NCBI GenBank assembly: GCA_001802125.1
Contig: MGZK01000008.1
Span: 1 to 64,000 of the forward strand
DNA length: 64,000 nucleotides
Direction: 5' to 3'
From: Geobacteraceae bacterium GWC2_55_20
GTDB lineage: Bacteria; Desulfobacterota; Desulfuromonadia; Geobacterales; Pseudopelobacteraceae
Below, piece after piece: positions 33,928 to 49,264 of this stretch. A model generated the notes under the pieces. The model did not search any database. It was not told the DNA's origin and worked only from the letters and a program-made list of their open reading frames with translations. The position numbers and the translations under genes were made by a program. Numbering within the stretch: the stretch's first letter is position 1; each line of letters begins with the position of its first letter.

Positions 33928-33965
33928 TAGAATATTCTCCACCTGTTTTGAATATTCCCCACCAA
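33928..33965 (+). promoter_or_regulatory. Tandem GAATATTC enhancer-like element, copy A
   Basis: GAATATTCTCCACC at 33930-33943 and TTGAATATTCCCCACC at 33948-33963, with the GAATATTC cores exactly 20 bp apart. The same arrangement occurs at 37107-37140 and 48633-48668. The proximal core begins 88 bp before the GG of the sigma-54 promoter at 34036. Probably the upstream activating site of an enhancer-binding protein. Confidence 0.75.
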
Positions 33966-34035: not shown

Positions 34036-34052
34036 TTGGCACGCCAATTGAA
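34036..34052 (+). promoter_or_regulatory. Sigma-54 promoter (-24/-12) of the HMA-DUF2318-ABC operon
   Basis: TTGGCACGCCAATTGAA matches YTGGCACGrNNNTTGCW at correct spacing, with A for C in the -12 element. The expected start of transcription is near 34063, 21 bp before the ATG at 34084. Confidence 0.8.
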
Positions 34053-34083: not shown

Positions 34084-34536
34084 ATGCCCTTGATCAACAA
34101 AAAACACACAAGACTGCTATCGACCTCGCTGCTCGTCGTCATAACCATTACCGTCCTGGCGGTTCTCGCTCTTCGCGTCAGGATCGGTGCGACAGCTGAT
34201 TCGGTAACCGTCCTGAGAACGAGCGGCATGACCTGCGGCAGCTGCTCCAGCAAGATTACCAAGGCGCTTGAGTCATTAAAAGGGGTTGCGGTCACCGAGG
34301 TGGACGTTGAGGGCGGATGGGTGGTAGTGGGTTACGACACAAAGACCGTCAAGCCGGAAGCTCTGGCAGAGAAAGTCAACGCCGCCGGCTTTGGTAGCAG
34401 AGTGCACAGGGTGCTGACTCCGGAGCAGTTCAAACAGATAACCGGCAGGGACATCGGGAAGCAGGCCTCGCCTTCTGGCGGCTGCGGTGGTTGTGGCACC
34501 CAGGGCGGCGGATGCGGGTCCAACAAACAAAGCTAG
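34084..34536 (+). CDS. Membrane-anchored heavy-metal-associated (HMA) domain protein
   Basis: 150 aa. AGGAG precedes ATG 34084. One N-terminal transmembrane helix (LLSTSLLVVITITVLAVLAL) is followed by an HMA domain whose metal loop is GMTCGSC (Cys51, Cys54), as in copper chaperones and MerP, and then a glycine/cysteine tail (GGCGGCGTQGGGCG) that may bind further metal. It probably collects Cu(I) or a similar soft metal on the periplasmic face. First gene of a four-gene operon controlled by the sigma-54 promoter at 34036. Confidence 0.85.
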   Translation: MPLINKKHTRLLSTSLLVVITITVLAVLALRVRIGATADSVTVLRTSGMTCGSCSSKITKALESLKGVAVTEVDVEGGWVVVGYDTKTVKPEALAEKVNAAGFGSRVHRVLTPEQFKQITGRDIGKQASPSGGCGGCGTQGGGCGSNKQS

Positions 34537-34628
34537 ACACCTTCCGATAATCGGGAGGCATGCATGAACGAAATTATATTCAGCAAGAAACGCAGCAAAT
34601 AATTTCAAACATACAAAAGGAGATCTAA

Positions 34629-35093
34629 ATGGCTACAATTCGCACGAAACAGGTGGTATGGGCAGGAATCGTAACGGTGGCGCTATTGATTGGCGCGGTC
34701 AGTGTTTTTGCCTTCTCGCTGGGCAAGTACGAAAAGGTGAAGGTAGCGAACGGGATTGCTACGATTCCAGTGTCCAAACTGGCTGACGGTAAGGCCCATT
34801 TTTACAAATTTGATGATGGTGGCAAGGAGATTGCCTTCTTCGCAGTCAGGTCAAGCGACGGCAGCATCAAAACCGCCTTCGACGCCTGTGATGCCTGCTA
34901 TAAATCCAAAAAGGGTTATGAACAACAGGATGACAAGATGAACTGCAAGAACTGCAACCAGAAATTCGCCATCAACCGTCTCGGGCCCAATGCCAGCGGC
35001 GGCTGCAATCCCGGTTATCTGCCGCACCAGCAAAACGGCAACAATATTTTCATTACAGTAAATGATCTCAAAGGCGGGGCGAGATACTTCTGA
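34629..35093 (+). CDS. DUF2318 domain protein, membrane-anchored
   Basis: 154 aa. An N-terminal helix (VVWAGIVTVALLIGAVSVFAF) anchors it. The DUF2318 core is clear: FDACDACYKSKKGY, then MNCKNCNQKFAINRLGP and GGCNPGYLP, whose cysteines are presumed metal ligands. In Campylobacter-type P19 iron systems a DUF2318 protein is encoded with FtsX-type permeases and an ABC ATPase, the same partners found here, although P19 and Ftr1 are absent. The stop overlaps the permease start (TGATG). Confidence 0.85.
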   Translation: MATIRTKQVVWAGIVTVALLIGAVSVFAFSLGKYEKVKVANGIATIPVSKLADGKAHFYKFDDGGKEIAFFAVRSSDGSIKTAFDACDACYKSKKGYEQQDDKMNCKNCNQKFAINRLGPNASGGCNPGYLPHQQNGNNIFITVNDLKGGARYF

Positions 35094-36253
35094 TGAAACT
35101 TCACACAATATCCATCAACAACCTGAAGCGCCGTAAGGCCAAAATGGCATTTCTTACCATCGGCCTGATGGTGGGAATTGCCACAATCGTCACACTGGTG
35201 ACCCTGACCCGCTCCATGTCCAGTGATATTGAACGCAAAATGGACGAGTTCGGCGCCAATATTCTCGTCACTCCCCAGAGCAACGGCCTCTCAATGAATT
35301 ATGGCGGCATCAGTCTGGGCGGCGTGACCTTTGATCAGCGCGAGATTCTTGAAGAAGATCTGGCCAAGATAAAGACCATAACCAACCACAGGAATATCTC
35401 GGCTATCAGCCCCAAGGTGCTGGGTGGCACCAAAATCAACGACCATGACGTGCTGCTGGTTGGTGTCCACTTCGAGAGCGAGTTGAAGATGAAACAGTGG
35501 TGGAAGGTTTTCGGAAATGAACCCAAGTCGGAACACGATCTTTTGCTCGGTTCTGATGCATCCAAAGTGCTAAACGTATCTCCCGGTGACAATCTGACCA
35601 TCAAAGGTGAAACCTTCACGGTTGCCGGGGTGCTCGACCAGACCGGCTCGCAGGACGACGCTCTTGTTTTTGCCGGCCTGGCCACAGCCCAGAAGCTATT
35701 GGACAAGAAGGGCAAGATCAGCATGGCTGAGGTCGCAGCGCTCTGTTCAGGTTGCCCCATCGGCGACATGGTGACCCAGATTGCCGAGAAACTGCCGGAT
35801 GCCAAGGTATCGGCCATCCAGCAGGTAGTCGAAGGCCGACTCAAGGCTCTGGATCAGTTCAAGCGCTTTTCCTACGCCATGGCCGGTGTAGTGGTCTTTA
35901 TCGGTTCACTGATCGTTTTTGTCACCATGATGGGCAGCGTCAACGAGCGGACCACGGAGATCGGCGTCTTCAGGGCCATCGGTTTCAGAAAGAGTCACAT
36001 CATGCGGATCATTCTTTTAGAGGCGGCTCTGGTCAGTCTGCTGGCCGGATTTCTGGGATATGCGGTCGGCATGGGAGGAGCCAAACTGGCCCTGCCGTTC
36101 ATGGCCGAGAGTAAGAATGCCCATTTGATATGGGATTCAACGGTAGCCTTCGGTTCAATCGGACTTGCGTTGACACTGGGGCTCCTGGCCAGCCTTTATC
36201 CGGCACTGCACGCATCAAAGATGGACCCGACAGAGGCACTAAGAGCTCTGTAG
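35093..36253 (+). CDS. FtsX/MacB-type ABC permease
   Basis: 386 aa. It has one N-terminal membrane helix (KMAFLTIGLMVGIATIVTLVTL), a periplasmic domain of about 220 residues and three C-terminal helices (for example FSYAMAGVVVFIGSLIVFVTMM), the layout of MacB/LolC-type mechanotransmission permeases. The FtsX signature VNERTTEIGVFRAIGFRKSHI lies between the helices. It should dimerise and work with the ATPase downstream to move or extract an envelope substrate. The stop codon lies inside an intergenic repeat. Confidence 0.9.
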   Translation: MKLHTISINNLKRRKAKMAFLTIGLMVGIATIVTLVTLTRSMSSDIERKMDEFGANILVTPQSNGLSMNYGGISLGGVTFDQREILEEDLAKIKTITNHRNISAISPKVLGGTKINDHDVLLVGVHFESELKMKQWWKVFGNEPKSEHDLLLGSDASKVLNVSPGDNLTIKGETFTVAGVLDQTGSQDDALVFAGLATAQKLLDKKGKISMAEVAALCSGCPIGDMVTQIAEKLPDAKVSAIQQVVEGRLKALDQFKRFSYAMAGVVVFIGSLIVFVTMMGSVNERTTEIGVFRAIGFRKSHIMRIILLEAALVSLLAGFLGYAVGMGGAKLALPFMAESKNAHLIWDSTVAFGSIGLALTLGLLASLYPALHASKMDPTEALRAL

Positions 36254-36307
36254 GGGCAGGTCTTGCACCTGCCCAACTGCGGGCGCCCGCAAGGGGACGC
36301 CCTTACA
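36249..36307. repeat. REP-like palindromic repeat within the operon
   Basis: Begins TGTAGGGGC and ends GACGCCCTTACA, an imperfect inverted pair; inside, GGGCAGGTCTTGCACCTGCCC is a hairpin, followed by GCGGGCGCCCGC. The wording resembles a widespread bacterial intergenic repeat. It overlaps the permease stop and separates permease from ATPase, where it could act as an mRNA processing or attenuation site. Confidence 0.7.
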
Positions 36308-36333
36308 AAAACACGAAATTGGACGGCTCATTT

Positions 36334-37005
36334 ATGGCACTCATCGAAGTTAAGAACGTAAAAAAACAGTACACCAGCGGCGATGACGTTGTCGAAGCGC
36401 TCCGCGGTGTGGACATCAGCATTGAGGCGGGTGAATTCATCACCATCATGGGGCAGTCAGGTTCCGGCAAGAGCACCCTGTTGTCCGTGCTGGGCGGCAT
36501 GAACCACCCTACTACGGGCGAGATAGAAATGGCCGGAGTAAAACTTTATCAACTGCCCGGCGAAAAACTGGCCGACTTCCGGGCACAGAACCTGGGGTTT
36601 GTCTTCCAGTCTTTCAATCTTATCTCCTACCTGACCGCCATCGAGAACGTCATGCTGCCGCTGGCTATCGTCAAGATGAGCACAGCGGCAAAAAAGATCG
36701 CCGCCCGCCAGGCCCTCCTCGAACGGGTCGGCCTGGGCGGCAAGCTGGACCGTCTGCCAAATCAACTCTCCGGCGGAGAACAGGAACGGGTAGCCATAGC
36801 CCGAGCCATCGTCAACAATCCCCATATACTCCTGGCAGACGAGCCGACCGGCAACCTTGATTCCAAAACCAGCGATGAGGTCATGGCGCTGTTTCGCGAA
36901 CTGAACGATGCCGGTCAGACCGTTGTCATGGTAACGCATAACCCGGAAAACGGGGCTTATTCCGATCGGACCGTCATATTGAAAGATGGTATGGTCGTTT
37001 TTTAA
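36334..37005 (+). CDS. ABC transporter ATPase, MacB/LolD type
   Basis: 223 aa from ATG 36334, the family-typical start ([13 protein letters not shown]). Intact motifs: Walker [11 protein letters not shown]-loop FVFQSFNLI, signature [15 protein letters not shown], Walker [13 protein letters not shown] and H-loop VTHN. It powers the FtsX-type permease upstream. Last gene of the sigma-54-controlled operon. The ribosome site is weak because a repeat occupies most of the preceding gap. Confidence 0.92.
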
Positions 37006-37104: not shown

Positions 37105-37140
37105 AAGAATATACTACTCGACTGTTGAATATTCCTCACC
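37105..37140 (+). promoter_or_regulatory. Tandem GAATATTC enhancer-like element, copy B
   Basis: GAATATACTACTC at 37107-37119 and TTGAATATTCCTCACC at 37125-37140, cores 20 bp apart. The proximal core begins 77 bp before the GG of the sigma-54 promoter at 37202, one helical turn less than in copy A. Confidence 0.75.
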
Positions 37141-37201
37141 GATGTCATTGCAATACTTGCCGGAATCCTTGTAACTCTTTGAATACCCGCATCCAATGCG
37201 T

Positions 37202-37218
37202 TTGGCACGATATCTGAT
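37202..37218 (+). promoter_or_regulatory. Sigma-54 promoter (-24/-12) of the cus-type efflux operon
   Basis: TTGGCACGATATCTGAT carries a perfect -24 half and a weaker -12 half (CTGAT). Transcription would begin near 37229, which excludes the in-frame ATG at 37196 as start of the next gene and supports 37259. Confidence 0.75.
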
Positions 37219-37258: not shown

Positions 37259-38632
37259 ATGAAAAACTTTTTTGTCGTAGTAGCCACAACGCTCATCTTT
37301 ACCAACTGCGCTCTCGCCGAAGAGCCCAAGCCCGTTGAAAACCTTTCCAATCTCGTCTCCAACGCGCTGACCAACAACCCGGAGCTGAAAGCGTCCCAGT
37401 CCCGCTGGCAGATGTTTGCCAATAAGTCCAGGCAGGCATCAAGCCTGGAAGATCCGATGTTCATGTTCAAACTTCAGAATATGCTGGTTCGCGAACCTTT
37501 TGTTTTCAACAAAGACCCCCAATCCGCCAAGGTGATCGGCATCTCTCAGCAACTCCCCTTCTGGGGCAAGCGGGCCATCAAGCAGGAGGTCGCCAACTAC
37601 GAGGCCGAATCCTTTAAATGGTCCATTGAAGAACGCAAGCTTGAGCTGACCCGAATGGTCAAGGAAACCTACTACCAACTTTGGGCCGTCGATAAGGGTT
37701 TGGAGATTGTTGACAAGAATCTGAAGATCCTGGCCGACTTTGTGACCATTACCGAGTCAAAGTATTCGGTAGGTCAGGGGGTACAGCAGGACATTTACAA
37801 GGCCGGCCTGGAAAAATCCAGGATGCTCGACATGCAGATAACCCTCAAACAGCAGCGAAAAAGTCTGGAAGCCAACCTCAATTACCTCCTCTATCGCCCC
37901 GGAAATACCCCGGTAGGCACCATCGCGGATTTCTCGCTGCCGCTACTCCCGCTCACCGCCGAACAACTGAATCAGACCGCCCATGACAAGCGCCCCCAGG
38001 TAAAAAGTCTGATCAGCCTGGCAAACAAGGGGCAGGCGTCTCACCGCCTGGCGCAAAAGGAATTCTATCCCGACTTCAACCTCTCCTTCGAGTATATGTT
38101 CAAGGAAGCCATTTCGACCGATATGGTAAGCGATCCCGGCTATGACATGTTTACCGTCGGAGTAACCTTCAACCTGCCCTTCCAGCAGCAACGCCGCCGG
38201 GCGATGCTGGCCGAATCGACATCCGAGACAAACATGGCGACGGAAGAGTTAAACGGCTTGAAGAACAACATCTCGTATACAATCAACGACACTCTTGCCC
38301 AGTTGGATCGCCGCAGAAAACTGGTGGAACTCTACAGGGGAGGCATCATCCCGCAGGCGGAACAATCCCTGGAATCAGCCGTGATCAGTTATCGGGTGAG
38401 TAAAGTGGATTTTTTGACGCTCCTTGACGGAAGAATGACCCTGTTCAACTACGAGCGGGAACTTTACGAGTCACAGGCAGAGTATATGATGAAACTGGCA
38501 CAGCTTGAAGCGGCTGTCGGAATCGATCTGGTATCAGCTCCTGTATTGCAGATGACAGCACCGCTGGCTGCCGTGCCGGAGCAGGCGCCATCACAGGCAG
38601 CACCGGCTTCCGGGCACATTCAACATCATTAA
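37259..38632 (+). CDS. TolC-family outer membrane efflux protein (CusC-like)
   Basis: 457 aa from ATG 37259, preceded by AGGGG. Signal peptide KNFFVVVATTLIFTNCALA. The two-fold TolC repeat is visible: long helices with ASQSRWQMFANKSRQASSLEDPMF and, later, LISLANKGQASHRLAQKEFYPDFNLSFEYMF, then FNLPF and ALAQLD-type stretches. It forms the outer-membrane and periplasmic tunnel of the RND pump encoded by the next two genes, 24 and 52 bp further on. Confidence 0.9.
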   Translation: MKNFFVVVATTLIFTNCALAEEPKPVENLSNLVSNALTNNPELKASQSRWQMFANKSRQASSLEDPMFMFKLQNMLVREPFVFNKDPQSAKVIGISQQLPFWGKRAIKQEVANYEAESFKWSIEERKLELTRMVKETYYQLWAVDKGLEIVDKNLKILADFVTITESKYSVGQGVQQDIYKAGLEKSRMLDMQITLKQQRKSLEANLNYLLYRPGNTPVGTIADFSLPLLPLTAEQLNQTAHDKRPQVKSLISLANKGQASHRLAQKEFYPDFNLSFEYMFKEAISTDMVSDPGYDMFTVGVTFNLPFQQQRRRAMLAESTSETNMATEELNGLKNNISYTINDTLAQLDRRRKLVELYRGGIIPQAEQSLESAVISYRVSKVDFLTLLDGRMTLFNYERELYESQAEYMMKLAQLEAAVGIDLVSAPVLQMTAPLAAVPEQAPSQAAPASGHIQHH

Positions 38633-38656: not shown

Positions 38657-40123
38657 ATGGCCCTGAACAAAAAAATCGCAATCCCCCTGGCAATCCTGAT
38701 CATCTCCGTTTCTGTCGCTGGAGGCTGGCTCTACAAAAATGGCTGGTTCAAGGATGATGGTGGTGGTCATTCAAAGCTTGAACACAAAGTTCAGCTCTGG
38801 ACCTGTTCCATGCACCCCTTCATCATCAAGGACAAGCCAGGCACCTGCCCGATCTGCGGCATGGAACTGATCAAGAAGCTTGATGATGCAGCTGTTGCCG
38901 GCACACCCCAGACTCCGGAGCAGAAGCAGCAGGCCGATATGCTCGGTCACGTCTCGCTCTCTCCGACCCAGCGGGTAATGGCCAATGTCGCCACCGTGGA
39001 GGCGAAACAAGCCGCACTGAACAAGGAGATCAACGCCGTCGGTATCGTGCAGTTCGACCAGTCGCGGCAGGCCAAGGTCACCGCCTGGATCGCCGGCCGC
39101 ATCGACAGACTGCATGTCAACAAAGTCGGCGATATTGTCAGCAAGGATAAACCGGTAGCCGAAGTCTATTCCCCCGACCTGGTTGCCACCCAGCAGGAAT
39201 ACCTGCTGGCGGTCAAGAGCCGTGAGCAGCTGAAGAATTCACCGATTCCCTCCATTTCCCAGAATGGAGAAGGTCTGGTGGCATCGGCCAAACAGCGCCT
39301 GTTGCTCTTCGGAGTCAAGGAGAGTCAGATCGCCGAATTGGAAGCGTCGGGCAAGCCTAATATCAGGCTTCCTATCTACACACCGCTTTCCGGTGTAGTG
39401 ATTGAAAAGATGATGCAGCAGGGGCAGTATGTCAACACCGGCGAGGTACTGTTTAACATCGCCGATCTTTCCAGAGTCTGGGTCGAAGTGGAAGTTTATG
39501 AGAACGAGTTCCCCAACATCCATATCGGACAACAGGTAGAGATTCGCTCCCAGTCGTTTCCCGGCAGACCGTTCAGCGGAAAAATCGCCTACATCTATCC
39601 CTTCCTTGACCCCAAAACCAGGACTGTCAAGGCCCGGGTGGAGATGGCCAATCCCGGTATGAAGCTGAAGCCCGATATGTTCGTCAATGCAATCATCAAG
39701 GTGCCGCTTGGCTCGGCAATTGTCGTACCGGTTACCGCGGTCATTGACACCGGAAAGCGTCAAGTAGTCTGGGTGGAAACTTCGACTGGGATGTTCGAGC
39801 CGCGTGATGTCCAGGTCGGACAGACAAGTAATGACAAAATACAGATTCTGTCGGGCCTCAAATCGGGCGATAAAGTGGCGGTGTCCGGCGGCTACCTGAT
39901 CGACTCTGAATCGCAACTGAAGGGTGGCGGTGGTGTGGACCATAGTCAGCATACCGGCGGGGGCAAGCCGGAGGCTAAGGGGCAGCAACCAGTACCGGCT
40001 GCAGGTTCCCAAAAGCCTCAGGGTGAACATGAAGGGCATGGTTCCGCACCGGCGCAACCTGCCAAACCTGCACCATCGGCACCGGCGAAGAAGTCTCTGA
40101 AAATGGATGACATGAAAATGTAA
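38657..40123 (+). CDS. RND efflux periplasmic adaptor (CusB-like) with heavy-metal-binding domain
   Basis: 488 aa. An N-terminal helix (IAIPLAILIISVSVAGGWLY) anchors it in the membrane. A heavy-metal-binding domain follows with LWTCSMHPFI and GTCPICGMEL (Cys50, Met52, His53, Cys64, Cys67). The adaptor body has the biotinyl-lipoyl/barrel-sandwich and beta-barrel parts (AGRIDRLHVNKVGDIVSKDKPVAEVYSPDL; YTPLSGVVIEKMMQQGQYV). The C-terminal tail is rich in His and Met (QHTGG, HEGHG, KMDDMKM), fitting Cu(I)/Ag(I). It hands metal to CusA and closes the pump. Confidence 0.92.
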   Translation: MALNKKIAIPLAILIISVSVAGGWLYKNGWFKDDGGGHSKLEHKVQLWTCSMHPFIIKDKPGTCPICGMELIKKLDDAAVAGTPQTPEQKQQADMLGHVSLSPTQRVMANVATVEAKQAALNKEINAVGIVQFDQSRQAKVTAWIAGRIDRLHVNKVGDIVSKDKPVAEVYSPDLVATQQEYLLAVKSREQLKNSPIPSISQNGEGLVASAKQRLLLFGVKESQIAELEASGKPNIRLPIYTPLSGVVIEKMMQQGQYVNTGEVLFNIADLSRVWVEVEVYENEFPNIHIGQQVEIRSQSFPGRPFSGKIAYIYPFLDPKTRTVKARVEMANPGMKLKPDMFVNAIIKVPLGSAIVVPVTAVIDTGKRQVVWVETSTGMFEPRDVQVGQTSNDKIQILSGLKSGDKVAVSGGYLIDSESQLKGGGGVDHSQHTGGGKPEAKGQQPVPAAGSQKPQGEHEGHGSAPAQPAKPAPSAPAKKSLKMDDMKM

Positions 40124-40175: not shown

Positions 40176-43100
40176 ATGATAGAAAAGATTATTGAATATT
40201 CCGCCCGCAACCGGGTCATTATCCTGATGATGTTCGGATTGATCATCGCCTGGGGGACCTGGTCGGTTTACAAGACCCCGGTGGATGCGATTCCGGACCT
40301 GTCCGACAATCAGGTGATTGTCTTCACCGACTATCCGGGTCGTTCGCCGCAGGTGGTGGAGGACCAGGTCACCTATCCGCTGGCTGTCAACCTGCAGGGA
40401 TTGCCCCAAGTGCGGGCGGTACGGGCTTCCTCGGCTTTCGGCTTCTCGATGATCTACGTGATCTTCGAGGACAAGGCGGATATATACTGGGCGCGAACCC
40501 GCGTGCTGGAACGCCTGAACTACGCCGCCTCCCTGCTTCCTGCCGGCGTGGTTCCGACCCTCGGTCCGGACGGTACCGGCGTTGGGCACGTCTTCTGGTA
40601 CACGATCGAAGGCAAGGGCTATGATCTGGAACAGCTGCGAACCCTGCAGGACTGGTTCGTACGCTATCAACTCAATACCGTTCAGGGTGTCGCCGAGGTT
40701 GCCTCTATCGGCGGACTGGTGCGTGAGTACCAGATTGACCTGGACCCCAACAAACTGTTTGCCTACAACATCAAGGTGGCCAAGGTCATGGATGCGGTCA
40801 AGGCCTCCAACAAGGATGTGGGGGGCAAGCTGATTGAACAGGCCGATGCCGAATATCTGATCCGTGGGCGCGGCTATGTCAAATCCAAGGAAGACCTGGA
40901 GAACATTGTCGTCGGCGCGGACATGCGCGGCACGCCGATCTATGTCAAGAACCTGGGAACGGTGCAGACCGGCGGAGCAATCCGGCGCGGTCTGCTGGAG
41001 ATGAACGGCGAAGGTGAATCAGTGGGCGGCATTGTCGTCATGCGCTACGGCGAGAATGCCAAGGACGTCATCGATCGGGTCAAGGTCAAGATCAAGGAAC
41101 TGGAGAAGGGGCTGCCTCCCGGTGTCAGGATCATGGTCTCCTATGACCGCTCAGACTTGATTCAGCGGGCAATTGATACCCTGAAGAAAAATTTGCTGGA
41201 GGAATCAGTTGTCGTTTCTCTGGTAATACTCGTCTTTCTATTGCACTTCCAGAGCGCCCTGGTAATCGTATTGACCCTGCCGATCTCAGTGCTGATCGCT
41301 TTCATAACCATGAAGCTCATGGGCGTCAGCTCCAATATCATGTCGCTGGGCGGTATTGCCATAGCCATAGGCGTGTTGGTGGACGCCGGGGTCATCATGG
41401 TGGAAAACTGCTATCGCCATCTCTCCGAGATGCCTCCGGAGGATCGGGCAAGCAAGCGATTGGAGACAGTCATTGCTTCAGCCAAGCAGGTTGGCCGGGC
41501 CATTTTCTTCTCCCTGGCGATCATCGTACTCTCTTTTGTGCCGGTCTTTCTTCTGGAAGGTCAAGAAGGAAAACTGTTCCATCCACTCGCTTTCACCAAG
41601 ACCTTCTCCATGATGGGGTCTGCCCTGATTGCCATTACTCTGGTACCGGTGTTGATGTATTACTTCATGCGGGGCAAAATGCCGCCCGAGAGTTCCAACC
41701 CGATCTCGACCTTCTTCATCAAGTTGTATTCGCCGGTTATTCGTTGGGTGCTTGTCTGGAAAAAGACCACCATTGCCCTTAACGTAGTGGCCCTGCTGGT
41801 TGCCGTGCCGATGTTCATGAAGCTGGGAAGTGAGTTCATGCCGCCATTGGATGAAGGGTCACTGCTCTATATGCCGGTCACACTTCCCAACGTCTCGATC
41901 ACCGAGGCCAAGCGGATTATCCAGGTGCAGGACCGGATCATCAAAGCCGTACCCGAGGTTGAACATGTTCTGGGCAAGGTAGGTCGTGCCGAGACCTCTA
42001 CAGATCCGGCACCGGTTTCCATGTTTGAAAGCATCATTATATTGAAGCCGAAAGACCAATGGCGTCCGGGAATCAAGAAGGCCGATATCGTTGCGGAACT
42101 GGATACCAAGCTCCGACAGATCGGTGTCAGAAATGGCTGGACTCAGCCGATCATCAACCGCATTAACATGCTCTCCACCGGTGTCAGAACAGATCTGGGG
42201 GTCAAAATATTTGGTAATGACCTGAATGTACTCAAAGATCTGGCGATTCAGACAGAAGCGATTCTAAAACCGATCAACGGCGCGGCCGACGTTGTAGCCG
42301 AGCGGGTCACCGGCGGCAATTACATCGACATCGATATCGACCGAGAAGCGGCGGCTCGCTATGGCGTGAACGTCGGGGATATTCAGGATGTCATTGAAAC
42401 CGCATTGGGTGGCGAAATGCTCTCCACTACGGTAGAGGGACGCAACCGCTTCCCGATCCGCATCCGCTACCTGCGCGACTACCGCGACAATATCCCGGCC
42501 ATTCGCCGCATTCTGGTGGCAGGAATGGATGGCGCCCAGGTGCCACTCTCACTGGTGACAAAACTGAAGATATCCACCGGTGCGCCGGAGATCAACAGCG
42601 AGGGTGGATTGTTACGTTCACTGGTATTTCTGAATGTCCGCGGGCGTGACATGGGCGGTTTCGTAACCGAGGCCAAACAGGTTCTGGAAAAGAATCTCAA
42701 GCTACCTCCCGGCTATTACGTAGCCTGGTCCGGGCAGTGGGAGAACCAGATCCGCGCCAAGGCCCGCCTGCAGATGCTGGTACCGATCGGCATCGTTATC
42801 ATTTTCATCCTGCTCTACTTCACCTTCCACTCGGCCCTGGAGGCGAGCATGGTCATGCTCTCGGTGCCATTTGCCCTGGTGGGAGGGGTCTATCTGGTCT
42901 CGGCTCTGGGCTACAACCTGTCGGTGGCGGTCTGGGTTGGCTTTATTGCTCTGTACGGCATCGCCGTGGAGACCGGGGTGGTGATGGTGATTTACCTGCA
43001 CGAGGCCCTGGACAAGAAACTGATCAATGGCCCCTGTACGGAACAGGATATTTACGATGCTACCTTCGAGGGAGCGGTGCTCCGCCTGCGTCCCAAGCTG

Positions 43101-43313
43101 ATGACTGTCGCCGTCGCTCTCCTCGGCCTGCTTCCGATCATGTGGTCAACCGGCACCGGTGCCGATGTAATGAAGCCGATTGCCGCCCCGATGATCGGCG
43201 GCATGATCTCATCAGCCGTGCATGTATTGATCATGACGCCGGTCATATTCGTATTGATGAAGAAAAGGGATTTGAAAAAAGGAAAACTGCATTACTCGGG
43301 AATGAAGCATTAA
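40176..43313 (+). CDS. cusA: Heavy-metal RND efflux pump (CusA/SilA-like)
   Basis: 1045 aa inner-membrane proton-driven exporter. It begins IEKIIEYSARNRVIILMM (first helix) and repeats the RND plan twice: large periplasmic loops between helices 1-2 and 7-8, GIAIAIGVLVDAGVIMVEN in helix 4 with the proton-relay aspartate, and ALYGIAVETGVVMVIYLHE in helix 10. The segment VGRAETSTDPAPVSMFE and the following MLSTGVRTDLGVKIFG resemble CusA/SilA copper/silver pumps more than CzcA zinc/cobalt pumps. It is the last pump gene of the operon. Confidence 0.92.
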   Translation: MIEKIIEYSARNRVIILMMFGLIIAWGTWSVYKTPVDAIPDLSDNQVIVFTDYPGRSPQVVEDQVTYPLAVNLQGLPQVRAVRASSAFGFSMIYVIFEDKADIYWARTRVLERLNYAASLLPAGVVPTLGPDGTGVGHVFWYTIEGKGYDLEQLRTLQDWFVRYQLNTVQGVAEVASIGGLVREYQIDLDPNKLFAYNIKVAKVMDAVKASNKDVGGKLIEQADAEYLIRGRGYVKSKEDLENIVVGADMRGTPIYVKNLGTVQTGGAIRRGLLEMNGEGESVGGIVVMRYGENAKDVIDRVKVKIKELEKGLPPGVRIMVSYDRSDLIQRAIDTLKKNLLEESVVVSLVILVFLLHFQSALVIVLTLPISVLIAFITMKLMGVSSNIMSLGGIAIAIGVLVDAGVIMVENCYRHLSEMPPEDRASKRLETVIASAKQVGRAIFFSLAIIVLSFVPVFLLEGQEGKLFHPLAFTKTFSMMGSALIAITLVPVLMYYFMRGKMPPESSNPISTFFIKLYSPVIRWVLVWKKTTIALNVVALLVAVPMFMKLGSEFMPPLDEGSLLYMPVTLPNVSITEAKRIIQVQDRIIKAVPEVEHVLGKVGRAETSTDPAPVSMFESIIILKPKDQWRPGIKKADIVAELDTKLRQIGVRNGWTQPIINRINMLSTGVRTDLGVKIFGNDLNVLKDLAIQTEAILKPINGAADVVAERVTGGNYIDIDIDREAAARYGVNVGDIQDVIETALGGEMLSTTVEGRNRFPIRIRYLRDYRDNIPAIRRILVAGMDGAQVPLSLVTKLKISTGAPEINSEGGLLRSLVFLNVRGRDMGGFVTEAKQVLEKNLKLPPGYYVAWSGQWENQIRAKARLQMLVPIGIVIIFILLYFTFHSALEASMVMLSVPFALVGGVYLVSALGYNLSVAVWVGFIALYGIAVETGVVMVIYLHEALDKKLINGPCTEQDIYDATFEGAVLRLRPKLMTVAVALLGLLPIMWSTGTGADVMKPIAAPMIGGMISSAVHVLIMTPVIFVLMKKRDLKKGKLHYSGMKH

Positions 43314-43338: not shown

Positions 43339-44472
43339 GTGGAAGAAGAAAACAAAAAATCCGACACAGCAGTTGACGAAATGTTTGAGATGTCATCGAC
43401 CTCCACTAAAATCACGACAATAGCGGCCGCAGTAATAGTTGTTATCTGTTGCGGGCTTTTCCTGATAATGATGTTGTTACGTAGAAGTGTTCTACCATTG
43501 CCAAAATTGGCAGAGAATGTTGCATTGATTGCCTCCGGTGACCTTCAGGTTGAGATTGCAACATCTGGGAAAGATGAAGTTGCGCAGTTGTCATTCGGTA
43601 TCAAGAATATGACGGAAAAATTGCGGGGCATACTCACCCAGATTTCACAGACATCTACTCAAGTCGCTTCGGCAGCCAACCAACTGAATTCAACTGCCGA
43701 GCAAATCGCTACCGGAGCCGAAGAGGTTGCCGCTCAATCAGCAACAGTTGCAACTGCCGGTGAAGAGATGTCGGCCACATCCGGTGACATCGCCCAGAAC
43801 TGCCAGATGGCGGCTGAAGGGGCTCAGCGGGCAACACAATCAGCACAAAACGGTTCAGGTGTCGTGGAAAATACCGTGGCGGTCATGGGGCAGATTGCTG
43901 AGAAAGTTCAGGAGACAGCCAGAACGGTAGAGAGTCTAGGGGCACGCTCTGACCAGATTGGCAACATTATCGGCACCATTGAGGATATCGCCGACCAGAC
44001 CAACCTGCTTGCACTTAATGCTGCTATTGAAGCTGCCCGTGCTGGTGAGCAAGGTCGAGGTTTTGCAGTCGTTGCTGACGAGGTTCGTGCTCTGGCTGAG
44101 CGTACTACCCATGCCACCAAAGAGATTAGCGAAATGATAAAGGCGATACAGAAGGAGACCAGAGGTGCTGTTATTGTCATGGAACAGGGGGTGCAACAGG
44201 TTGAAGCAGGTACAGTAGAAGCGGCAAAATCGGGTGATGCTCTTCGAGATATTCTGGAACAGATTAACTCCGTAGCCATGCAGGTCAATCAGATAGCCAC
44301 TGCTGCTGAAGAACAGACAGCAACAACCAGTGAAATTTCCAGCAATATGCACCAAATTACTGAAGTGGTGCAGCAAACATCACATGGGGCACAGGAATCC
44401 GCCACGGCGGCGGCACAACTGAATGGCAACGCTGAAGAACTACAGAGATTGGTAGGTCAGTTTAAGTTGTGA
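43339..44472 (+). CDS. Methyl-accepting chemotaxis protein lacking its sensor domain
   Basis: 377 aa from a GTG at 43339. The signalling part is complete: HAMP-like region after LPLPKLAENVALIASGDLQVEI, methylation helices, and the hairpin tip IEDIADQTNLLALNAAIEAARAGEQGRGFAVVADEVRALAERT. In front of it there is only one membrane helix (ITTIAAAVIVVICCGLFLIMMLL) and a short acidic leader; the usual first helix and ~150-residue periplasmic sensor are missing. No good ribosome site precedes it and the frame runs back without a stop into the cusA end. Probably a 5'-truncated receptor joined to the efflux operon by recombination. Confidence 0.8.
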   Translation: MEEENKKSDTAVDEMFEMSSTSTKITTIAAAVIVVICCGLFLIMMLLRRSVLPLPKLAENVALIASGDLQVEIATSGKDEVAQLSFGIKNMTEKLRGILTQISQTSTQVASAANQLNSTAEQIATGAEEVAAQSATVATAGEEMSATSGDIAQNCQMAAEGAQRATQSAQNGSGVVENTVAVMGQIAEKVQETARTVESLGARSDQIGNIIGTIEDIADQTNLLALNAAIEAARAGEQGRGFAVVADEVRALAERTTHATKEISEMIKAIQKETRGAVIVMEQGVQQVEAGTVEAAKSGDALRDILEQINSVAMQVNQIATAAEEQTATTSEISSNMHQITEVVQQTSHGAQESATAAAQLNGNAEELQRLVGQFKL

Positions 44473-46553: not shown

Positions 46554-47894
46554 ATGCCAGCCAATATACTTAACCTCCCTGCCTATACTGTTACTAATAT
46601 CGTCGAGACGGAACACGATTATCACATTAATGCCGAAACGAAAACCACCTCGCAGACTTGCCCTCATTGCTACAGTGACCACCTCGTAGGCTTCGTCCGT
46701 AACGAGCAACTGGTACGTGATCTGCCGATTCACGGTAAGCGGATCGGCATCTACGTCGATACCAGACGCTATCAATGCCGCTCATGCAACAAGACCTTTT
46801 ACGAGCGTCTACCGGACGTGGACGGCAAGCGCATGATGACCTCGCGCCTGGTTGCGTGGCTTGGCAAACAATCAGTCAAGCGGCCCTTCTCCCATCTCGC
46901 CGAGGAAATCGGCATAAGCGAGATGACGGTTAAGAACGTCTTCAACGACTACATCAACGAGCTTGAACGTACAGTCAGATTTGAGACGCCCCAATGGATG
47001 GGGATCGACGAGATCCACATCATCAAGAAACCCCGCTGCGTAGTTTCAAACATCGAGAACAATACCATCGTCAACGTCCTGCGCGACCGCAACAAGAAGA
47101 CCGTAGCGGAATACCTGTTTCGTCTCAAGGGCAGGGACCTGGTGAAATGCGTTGCCATAGACATGTGGGAACCGTACAAGGATGCCGTGCGGGATGTCAT
47201 GCCCCAGGCGACTATCGTGATTGACAAGTTTCATGTAGTCCGGATGGCAAATGACTGTCTTGAGAAAGTACGGAAGGAGATTCGCGGGAGCCTGACTGAT
47301 AAACAGCGCCGAGGCCTGATGCATGATCGGTTTATCCTCCTGAAGCGTGAATCAAACCTTAAAGGTCTCGACCTCATCACACTTGAGTCCTGGACAAAGA
47401 ATTATCCGGCCCTGGGTGCGGCCTATCGGGCCAAAGAGGATTTCTTTGCCATCTACGATGCAATGACGGTTCAGGAAGGGATTACTCAATTTCGAGATTG
47501 GGAGGCCAGCCTGGCACCAGAGATCAAGACGCCTTCTACCCTCTCACGCGAGCAGTTAACAACTGGATGCCGGAGATCATGGCGTACTTCGATCATCCGG
47601 TTACGAACGCTTACACCGAGTCGCTGAACAACCTTATCCGGGTCATGAATAGAATTGGGGATGGGTTACAGCTTTGAAGCTCTCAGAGCAAAGATTCTCT
47701 TTACGGAAGGTGTCTGCAAGATCAAGAAACCGAAGTTCCAGCGTCCGGTCCAGAAGCCGCAAGAAATGGAGGCCTTCAGTTACTTTTCCTCTATCTCCAA
47801 AATGGGGCCATCAACAGTTTCCGAGGGACGCGAGATTAACTATGGAGCGGACATATCAACACTGGTGAGGATGATCGAGGAAGGCTTGCTTTAA
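46554..47894 (+). pseudogene. ISL3-family transposase, two frameshifts
   Basis: The first frame (46554 to about 47520) gives the zinc-finger N-terminus (CPHCYSDH, YQCRSCNKTFYERLP), HTH and catalytic start (PQWMGIDEIHI) of an ISL3/IS204-type transposase. The match then continues in a second frame (about 47520-47650: FYPLTRAVNNWMPEI, NAYTESLNNLIRVMNRIG) and returns to the first frame (from about 47655: GYSFEALRAKILFTEG) to a stop at 47894. Two indels therefore inactivate it. The ATG immediately follows the kinase stop (TAAATG), so the left end of the element is missing; CATGAAATATGGATACCCC at about 47909-47927 may be the right end. Confirmed IS boundaries cannot be given. Confidence 0.88.
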
Positions 47895-48020
47895 CCTCTC
47901 ATACATCATGAAATATGGATACCCCTAACTCTTAAATGGCAATTTTCAGTCGGATTATTGTTGCGCGTCTCAAGCCCTCAGGCCATTCCGGCCACTGAAT
48001 TAACAATTGGGAGTGAATGT

Positions 48021-48503
48021 ATGAAACTCAATCACATCATTGCAGCGTTATCCATGGTTTTCGTATCTTCATTTGCCTATGCCGGCGGAAACCACGCGGG
48101 CGGTCACGGCGAAGCAGAGACAATCGGTCAACCGGGTAAGGCAAAGAACATCAGCCGTACTATCACGATCACTATGTTCGATACGATGCGCTACAGCCCG
48201 GCCAGCATTTCGGTCAAGCAGGGTGAAACCGTCAAGTTCATCGTTAAAAATTCCGGCAAGACCAAACATGAACTGGTCCTGGGCACTGAAAAAGAGCTGA
48301 AGGAGCACTATGAGTTGATGAAGAAAAACCCTGAGATGGAGCACGCTGATGAAAACATGCTTACAGTCCAACCAGGCGAATCAGGTGAAATTATCTGGCA
48401 CTTCACCAAAGCAGGTAAAATTGATTTTGCGTGTCTGCTGCCAGGCCACTATGACGCGGGTATGAAAGGGACTGTGAGGGTGAAGTCGCGGAAGGCAAAG
48501 TAG
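48021..48503 (+). CDS. Exported cupredoxin-domain copper protein
   Basis: 160 aa from ATG 48021, preceded by GGGAGTGA. The signal peptide (HIIAALSMVFVSSFAYA) leads into a His-rich stretch (NHAGGHGE). The plastocyanin-like domain has a complete type-1 copper set: His83 (TKHELV), Cys138, His143 and Met148 (DFACLLPGHYDAGM). It probably binds copper in the periplasm for storage, buffering or electron transfer. It follows the dead transposase and precedes the third sigma-54 unit; its own promoter was not identified. Confidence 0.85.
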   Translation: MKLNHIIAALSMVFVSSFAYAGGNHAGGHGEAETIGQPGKAKNISRTITITMFDTMRYSPASISVKQGETVKFIVKNSGKTKHELVLGTEKELKEHYELMKKNPEMEHADENMLTVQPGESGEIIWHFTKAGKIDFACLLPGHYDAGMKGTVRVKSRKAK

Positions 48504-48630: not shown

Positions 48631-48668
48631 AGGAATATGCTGCTCAACGTGTTGAATATTCTCCACAT
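48631..48668 (+). promoter_or_regulatory. Tandem GAATATTC enhancer-like element, copy C
   Basis: GAATATGCTGCTC at 48633-48645 and TTGAATATTCTCCACA at 48652-48667, cores 21 bp apart. The proximal core begins 66 bp before the GG of the sigma-54 promoter at 48718, again one helical turn less than in copy B. Confidence 0.75.
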
Positions 48669-48717
48669 CCTCACATATTCTCAGGTACATTAGCCAGTAA
48701 TATCAAGGTGATACACA

Positions 48718-48734
48718 TTGGCATGGCATATGCT
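48718..48734 (+). promoter_or_regulatory. Sigma-54 promoter (-24/-12) of the His/Met-rich protein genes
   Basis: TTGGCATGGCATATGCT has both halves (GG and GC) at the right spacing. Transcription would begin near 48745, 40 bp before ATG 48785. Confidence 0.82.
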
Positions 48735-48784: not shown

Positions 48785-49264
48785 ATGAATAAAATGACCG
48801 TACTAATTGCAGCGCTCTTTGCCCTTGCAGCTCCTGTGGCCTCTTTTGCCGCTAACCATGGCGGCCACGAAGGCGGCTCTCATGACATGGGGCACGGTGG
48901 TCATCAAGGGGATGTGGCTCATGAAGAAGTGGTAGACAGTGTTAAAGCGACCTTCAAGGTTATGAGCATGAAAGAGCACATGAAGTCCATGAACATGGAA
49001 ATGCCGAAAGGGATGAAAGAGTCACATCACATCGCGGTTGAGTTCAAGGATGCAAAAACGGGCAAGGCCCTGACCGAGGGTGAGGTTAAGGTGAAAGTAC
49101 AGAACCCTGACAAAAGCAGCCAGTCCAAGGACTTGATGGGAATGCAGGGCCATTTCGGGGCGGACTTTGATCTCTCAAAGAAGGGTAAGTACGGCGTCAT
49201 GAGCAAGTTTCAGTTGAAGGACGGAAAAGTGCGCCAGTCCAAATTCTGGTACACGGTGAAGTAG
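48785..49264 (+). CDS. His/Met-rich exported metal-binding protein
   Basis: 159 aa from ATG 48785, 9 bp after AGGAG; a TTG at 48779 is too close. The signal peptide is MTVLIAALFALAAPVASFA. The mature start is packed with histidines (ANHGGHEGGSHDMGHGGHQG) and the middle with methionines (MSMKEHMKSMNMEMPKGM), as in periplasmic copper/silver proteins. The C-terminal half is a beta-sandwich-like module (LTEGEVKVKVQNPDKSS, GKYGVMSKFQLKDGK) reminiscent of YtkA/FixH-type domains. Likely a periplasmic metal buffer. Controlled by the third sigma-54 promoter. Confidence 0.8.
   Translation: MNKMTVLIAALFALAAPVASFAANHGGHEGGSHDMGHGGHQGDVAHEEVVDSVKATFKVMSMKEHMKSMNMEMPKGMKESHHIAVEFKDAKTGKALTEGEVKVKVQNPDKSSQSKDLMGMQGHFGADFDLSKKGKYGVMSKFQLKDGKVRQSKFWYTVK

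Follow-up and report, generated by a model that had tools for sequence, protein, structure and literature searches.

The DNA analysed here, hereafter the window, comprises positions 1-64,000 of contig MGZK01000008.1 of Geobacteraceae bacterium GWC2_55_20. Between positions 34084 and 37005 it carries four genes, for an HMA protein, a short DUF2318 protein, an FtsX-type permease of an ATP-binding cassette (ABC) transporter and a separate ATPase, followed by the genes of a CusCBA-type pump. We read this module as probably an envelope system for the handling of Cu(I)/Ag(I) that feeds CusCBA, in which the HMA protein captures the metal and the DUF2318 protein and a cysteine-bearing permease act as a relay or redox keeper. 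A copper/silver role as such is held with somewhat greater confidence; the cysteine relay, taken by itself, is a tentative suggestion. The sequence itself shows which genes are present, that they lie together and share control elements, that cysteines are conserved and that the pump is of the copper type; the Rieske fold is that of a structural model.

The four genes are intact, consecutive and all on the + strand (Table 1). An operon of this composition, headed by an HMA protein with a Cys/Gly tail, was the starting point of the original prediction, and each gene was found where it had been placed. The HMA protein has a single N-terminal transmembrane (TM) helix at residues 11-29, a GMTCGSC motif and a C-terminal CGGCG tail. 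The DUF2318 protein likewise begins with one TM helix, followed by a Rieske-fold domain with the cysteine pattern CxxC-x15-CxxC-x16-C. No NCBIfam equivalog reached its cut-off for any of the four proteins and none whatever matched DUF2318; the ATPase was nearest to the MacB/LolD/FtsE models, all below cut-off. Identity as a MacAB exporter was rejected, as there is no MacA, ATPase and permease are separate genes and the only adaptor nearby is CusB.

The CusA of the window aligns over its full length with CusA of E. coli, M566, M616 and M665 corresponding to M573, M623 and M672, which form the Cu(I)/Ag(I) methionine triad of the E. coli protein. By this triad the pump beside the module is of the copper/silver CusCBA type, and transport of Cu(I)/Ag(I) is predicted for it. 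E. coli CusCFBA thus offers a counterpart for the Met triad, for CusB and CusC and for the logic of a periplasmic copper chaperone. It differs in that the HMA protein, DUF2318 and the ABC transporter are added here, and a histidine kinase with an NtrC-type sigma-54 regulator replaces CusRS; no CusF was seen in the operon.

That the HMA operon and CusCBA share a control element had also been proposed, and this was borne out beyond chance. Boxes of the GAATATTC type, 20 bp apart, and the sigma-54-like element TGGCACG-N4-(T/C)TGA are found upstream of both 34084 and cusC. Among 53 Geobacterales regions upstream of HMA genes, TGGCAYG-N4-TTGA occurred in 25 (0.3 in shuffles) and GAATATTC-type boxes in 28 (0.9 in shuffles); for 31 cusC upstream regions the numbers were 5 for the sigma-54-like element and 16 for the box, and upstream of control histidine kinase and ATPase genes they were 0 each. 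The boxes are spaced 20-22 bp apart, and their distances from the promoter cluster at about 76, 87, 97, 107 and 118 bp, that is, in steps of one helical turn. A search of 39 genomes for the exact tandem pattern gave 19 places, of which 13 lie at the module; the reversed control gave 0. A genome scan with a single box and 2 mismatches returned 87 matches versus 20 in the control and was discarded as too loose to define a regulon. The -12 part reads TTGA (CTGA at some cusC copies) and never the consensus TTGC wherever either was allowed, and the label sigma-54 is therefore owed to the -24 part, to the spacing and to the linked regulator of the sigma-54 class. These patterns support one NtrC-type regulator over the HMA and cusC operons, and we infer that the boxes are bound by the cluster's own sigma-54 regulator. 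The gene for a small His/Met-rich exported protein is apparently preceded by yet another such site, the third in the window.

A paralogous cluster, whose permease is 83% identical to that of the window, is located on contig 25 of the same genome. Here the order is HMA, DUF2318, permease, ATPase, histidine kinase, other genes, sigma-54 response regulator, CusC, CusB and CusA. The window copy is without kinase and regulator, which were either lost or never present. In the second copy several unrelated open reading frames (ORFs) lie between histidine kinase and sigma-54 regulator, as if inserted (L003:7694-12297).

Whether the unit recurs and tracks with cusCBA had been raised together with the original prediction. 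It was found to recur in Geobacterales and elsewhere in the Desulfobacterota; its usual neighbour is CusCBA, and in some cases CsoR-CopA. Matches to the permease profile were obtained in 78 of 395 Desulfobacterota genomes, representing 52 of 245 genera. At 80 named permease (PERM) loci from Geobacter, Geomonas, Citrifermentans, Geotalea, Oryzomonas, Pelotalea and others, the ATPase was present at 75, DUF2318 at 70, HMA at 53 and CusA at 49. CusA of at least 45% identity was found within about 9 kb in 38 of the 46 named PERM loci with enough flank versus 0 of 15 FetA-type loci, a difference whose Fisher p of 7e-9 is overstated, the loci being related. Many of the contigs are short. One FetA-type control locus has a weak CusA-like match of 39% identity, under the 45% bar. 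All three methionines were kept in the PERM-linked CusA proteins (at least 46% identity) wherever the aligned region covers the triad. These flanks also contain RND proteins of 24-31% identity (L078, L097, L134), and in those the triad is not kept. Furthermore, a P1B ATPase with a copper signature was present at 12 and a CsoR-like gene at 11 of the 80 named loci, versus none of the 15 controls.

CsoR-CopA adjoin the module in Geomonas, Citrifermentans and on plasmid pPRO1 of Pelobacter propionicus. The entire arrangement of P. propionicus DSM 2379 is on this plasmid, with genes for a CsoR-family regulator, P-type ATPase, HMA protein, DUF2318, FtsX permease, ATPase, M23 peptidase, kinase, sigma-54 regulator, TolC, adaptor and CusA/CzcA. 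The module is split in Geomonas-type genomes, histidine kinase, HMA and DUF2318 forming one locus and permease-ATPase, CsoR, a copper-type P1B ATPase and CusCBA another; genus g17 is taken to be Geomonas from its arrangement, which matches that of named Geomonas contigs. The permease is kept in all 18 searched genomes of Geomonas-type and neighbouring genera.

The P19/Ftr1 iron system, in contrast, is not what accompanies this DUF2318. The original prediction had noted the absence of P19 and Ftr1, and this was confirmed genome-wide: PF10634 (P19) and PF03239 (FTR1) gave zero matches in the genome, which is 99.88% complete. Ftr1 and P19 genes near the same operon in relatives, which would have spoken for an iron system, were seen at none of the PERM loci examined, and the sequence analysis gave no sign of a response to iron only. 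DUF2318 genes have been reported to lie almost always within the P19 cluster (PMC6083913). This rule fails in the present order because, among 117 relatives, DUF2318 is found in 96 and P19 in 6; FTR1 is found in 8, and the P19 genes of the 6 are all at separate FetA-type loci. The contexts of 80 DUF2318 loci were mostly of three types: a short DUF2318 protein with HMA and/or permease, ATPase, histidine kinase, response regulator and CusCBA (A); six clusters of FTR1-P19-FetA-FetB-FetC-FetD (B); and a long FetA-like protein of about 445 amino acids with two Fet-type permeases and FetD, with P19/FTR1 absent within the fetched flanks (C). Loci of type C (L118-L124, L131, L132) are common in Geobacterales.

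By sequence and model the permease groups with the type VII permeases MacB, LolC/E, HrtB and BceB-like proteins. In the permease tree a single PERM clade (support 96/99) stands beside a single Fet clade (97/87), with the other FtsX permeases of the genome outside both, the outer split being weak (40/82). Gene content and this tree led us to reject membership in the P19/Ftr1 (Fet) system. Compared to FetMP-FetABCDEF of Campylobacter jejuni (PMC10783030, PMC6083913), the module shares a DUF2318 domain with CxxC-x13-15-CxxC-x14-16-C, a MacB-like permease that is its neighbour in the tree and a separate ATPase. The Campylobacter system, however, has FetM/Ftr1 and P19, an 8-TM FetA with YHS and two permeases, whereas the module has a one-TM DUF2318 protein, one permease with an invariant periplasmic CxxC, an HMA protein, a link to CusCBA and sigma-54 control. 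The description of a rewired P19-like module holds only in part and is not supported in those words. The permease forms a clade of its own beside FetB/FetC and carries its own invariant CxxC, and there is a single permease in place of two and a short single-TM DUF2318 in place of the 8-TM FetA. The copper-linked and iron modules appear to have branched in parallel within a single DUF2318-ABC lineage, with no direction of evolution assigned.

The same data bear on the idea that the module is a Fet system without P19, serving periplasmic iron redox chemistry or iron uptake and standing beside a copper pump by chance. The Fet permeases are indeed the nearest clade, and DUF2318 and related permeases are required for iron-limited growth of C. 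jejuni (PMC10783030). We nevertheless regard this explanation as very improbable, given a genome with neither the iron permease FTR1 nor P19, the repeated linkage to CusCBA, CsoR and CopA, the control shared with cusC and a permease in its own clade with its own CxxC.

This CxxC is part of a motif, E-V/I-x-A-x-C-x-x-C-P, between TM1 and TM2 of the permease. The CxxC itself is invariant in 49 of 49 and in 40 of 40 sequences, corresponds to C218 and C221 in the window and is missing from the FetB/FetC sequences examined. By analogy to the topology of MacB it is predicted to be periplasmic. In fold and topology, and in its LolD/MacB-like ATPase, the transporter resembles MacB, LolCDE and HrtBA (type VII ABC), from which it differs by the unfused ATPase, the absence of MacA, the periplasmic CxxC and the DUF2318 partner. 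A Lol/MacB-like exporter might instead remove or export a product that is damaged by copper or linked to lipid; it would be regulated together with copper efflux and have no contact to copper. The fold is that of the extractors MacB, LolC, LolE and HrtB, and on pPRO1 the M23 peptidase gene directly follows that of the ATPase; such envelope repair would, however, leave the conserved HMA protein, the five-cysteine Rieske-fold domain and the permease CxxC unexplained and is rather improbable.

What DUF2318 and the Fet ABC transporter do has been stated as unknown by the work that studies them (PMC10783030). An AlphaFold model of DUF2318 (pLDDT 84.5) was compared to known structures. Foldseek placed Rieske proteins among its best rows (best E 8e-4) and VIA superposed residues 42-153 on the T4moC ferredoxin (1vm9) with Z 9.9 and 2.8 A over 101 residues; the VIA matches listed, 50 entries, were Rieske-type proteins. 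Alignment by hhalign of 189 DUF2318 domains with Rieske proteins of the same genome group gave a score of 33.7 (E 2e-5 for one comparison, probability 77%), versus scores no higher than 16 for 30 column-shuffled profiles and no higher than 19 for five unrelated families. A sequence search of the PDB with DUF2318 gave no match at E up to 1, and the fold is accordingly seen only via the model and the profile comparison. The pattern CxxC-x13-15-CxxC-x14-16-C is present in 189 of 189 domains, the long FetA types included; the Rieske ligand motif CxH...CxxH is absent and CxxC...CxxC stands instead in all 189. In the profile alignment C87 corresponds to the cysteine of CxH, C106 and C109 to the cysteine and histidine of CxxH, and C90 takes the place of the first Rieske histidine, one residue further; C126 is the fifth invariant cysteine. 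DUF2318 thus resembles the Rieske [2Fe-2S] ferredoxins, such as T4moC, in fold and profile match, and differs by CxxC/CxxC in place of CxH/CxxH and by a fifth cysteine in the third loop. As modelled, DUF2318 is a Rieske fold with cysteines replacing the histidine ligands, FetA of the iron system included.

Taken together, these features are consistent with the following scheme, in which the identity of the metal, the direction in which it is passed on, the redox role and the mechanotransmission are what we infer. The HMA protein would capture Cu(I) on the periplasmic face. The all-cysteine Rieske-fold domain and the permease CxxC would act together as a relay of cysteines, powered by ATP via mechanical coupling, that passes Cu(I) to CusB/CusA or holds Cu(I) or its carrier reduced and transferable, and CusCBA would then expel it. 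The histidine kinase and sigma-54 response regulator would activate both operons from the tandem GAATATTC boxes. The proposal of a distinct and undescribed copper/silver system of the envelope is supported, as the module tracks with CusCBA and occurs without P19/Ftr1; the open-licence literature yielded no paper on the cluster, and of the 4 papers with DUF2318 none deals with copper.

A sensory device would account for part of the same evidence. The HMA and DUF2318 proteins would report periplasmic metal or redox state to the histidine kinase, and the ABC pair would reset or amplify the signal as BceAB does for BceS. The kinase has four TM helices with conserved His/Cys, short loops and no periplasmic sensor domain; kinase, HMA and DUF2318 stay together without the permease in Geomonas; DUF2318 is immediately ahead of kinase, response regulator and CusCBA in L135; and BceAB is among the matches of the permease model. 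Nevertheless, many copies, that of the window included, have no neighbouring kinase, in distant members of the phylum DUF2318 goes with the permease (38 of 40) much more often than with the kinase, and an ATP-driven extractor is needless for a sensor alone, all of which makes this explanation unlikely.

Several observations weigh against the copper/silver scheme. HMA domains can bind Hg, Zn and Cd as well, and the HMA gene is not constant in other genomes. At 40 distant Desulfobacterota permease loci the ATPase was adjacent at 40 and DUF2318 at 38, with a CusA-like pump at 19 and HMA at 13; about half of these loci have the DUF2318-permease-ATPase trio without CusA or HMA, and some, read by eye, adjoin ZIP or TlpA-like genes. 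Copies in genus g2 (L133, L134, L137) are without a copper pump. The permease model is modest (mean pLDDT 70), with its CxxC region under 50. From the distant trio loci and genus g2 it follows that the unit may be a broader one with copper as one of its uses, and several metals may be handled by the core of three genes. In distant loci, genes just upstream of DUF2318 (L258:9769-10284, L282:9866-10216) encode small CCC-motif proteins, possibly another metal-binding partner of the core. More generally, though doubtfully, DUF2318 with an all-cysteine metal or Fe-S centre and its dedicated MacB-like ABC transporter could constitute a general machine of the envelope that uses ATP to reduce periplasmic metal ions or to hand them over. 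Some bacteria would combine it with P19/Ftr1 to take up iron, and here it would be combined with HMA and CusCBA to expel copper/silver.

Table 1. Genes and putative control elements of the module and its surroundings (window positions).
Feature	Position	Strand	Remarks
Tandem boxes GAATATTCTCCACC / GAATATTCCCCACC, 20 bp apart, upstream of HMA	33930..33963	+	Putative activator sites; kept in relatives
Sigma-54-like element TGGCACG-N4-TTGA upstream of HMA	34037..34051	+	
Membrane-anchored HMA protein	34084..34536	+	PF00403, 4e-14
Short DUF2318 protein	34629..35093	+	PF10080 (FtrD-like), 2e-33
FtsX/MacB_PCD (MacB/LolC-type) ABC permease	35093..36253	+	PF02687, 1e-22; PF12704, 5e-15
LolD/MacB-type ABC ATPase subunit	36334..37005	+	PF00005, 1e-32
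Tandem boxes GAATATAC / GAATATTCCTCACC upstream of cusC	37107..37140	+	
Sigma-54-like element TGGCACG-N4-CTGA upstream of cusC	37203..37217	+	
CusC-type outer membrane channel (OEP)	37259..38632	+	Listed ORF opens at 37196; ATG at 37259 fits the promoter
CusB-type adaptor with HMBD metal-binding domain	38657..40123	+	
CusA-type RND pump	40176..43313	+	Met triad M566/M616/M665
Boxes GAATATGC and GAATATTC plus TTGGCATG-GCAT-ATGC, ahead of the His/Met-rich protein gene (48785)	48633..48733	+	Apparent third site
Small His/Met-rich exported protein	48785..49264	+	No Pfam match; recurs in cluster

Further genes were observed downstream of the pump. A chemotaxis protein of the methyl-accepting (MCP) type, with HAMP and no visible periplasmic sensor domain, directly follows cusA (43339-44472). 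An ISL3-family transposase whose frame is broken near the C-terminus (46554-47894) adjoins a hybrid histidine kinase downstream of cusA and may be a decaying insertion that possibly disrupted the cluster. An exported cupredoxin-like protein (PF00127) is encoded near the CusCBA operon at 47958-48503.

In the relatives of this bacterium the main partner of DUF2318 is a copper/silver pump, P19 being present in only 6 of 117. If the proposed role is correct, a large group of metal-reducing bacteria would use in copper efflux an ATP-driven component of which we found no description. The Rieske-fold reading, if true, would give a domain of unknown function a concrete redox or metal site, in copper and iron systems alike.

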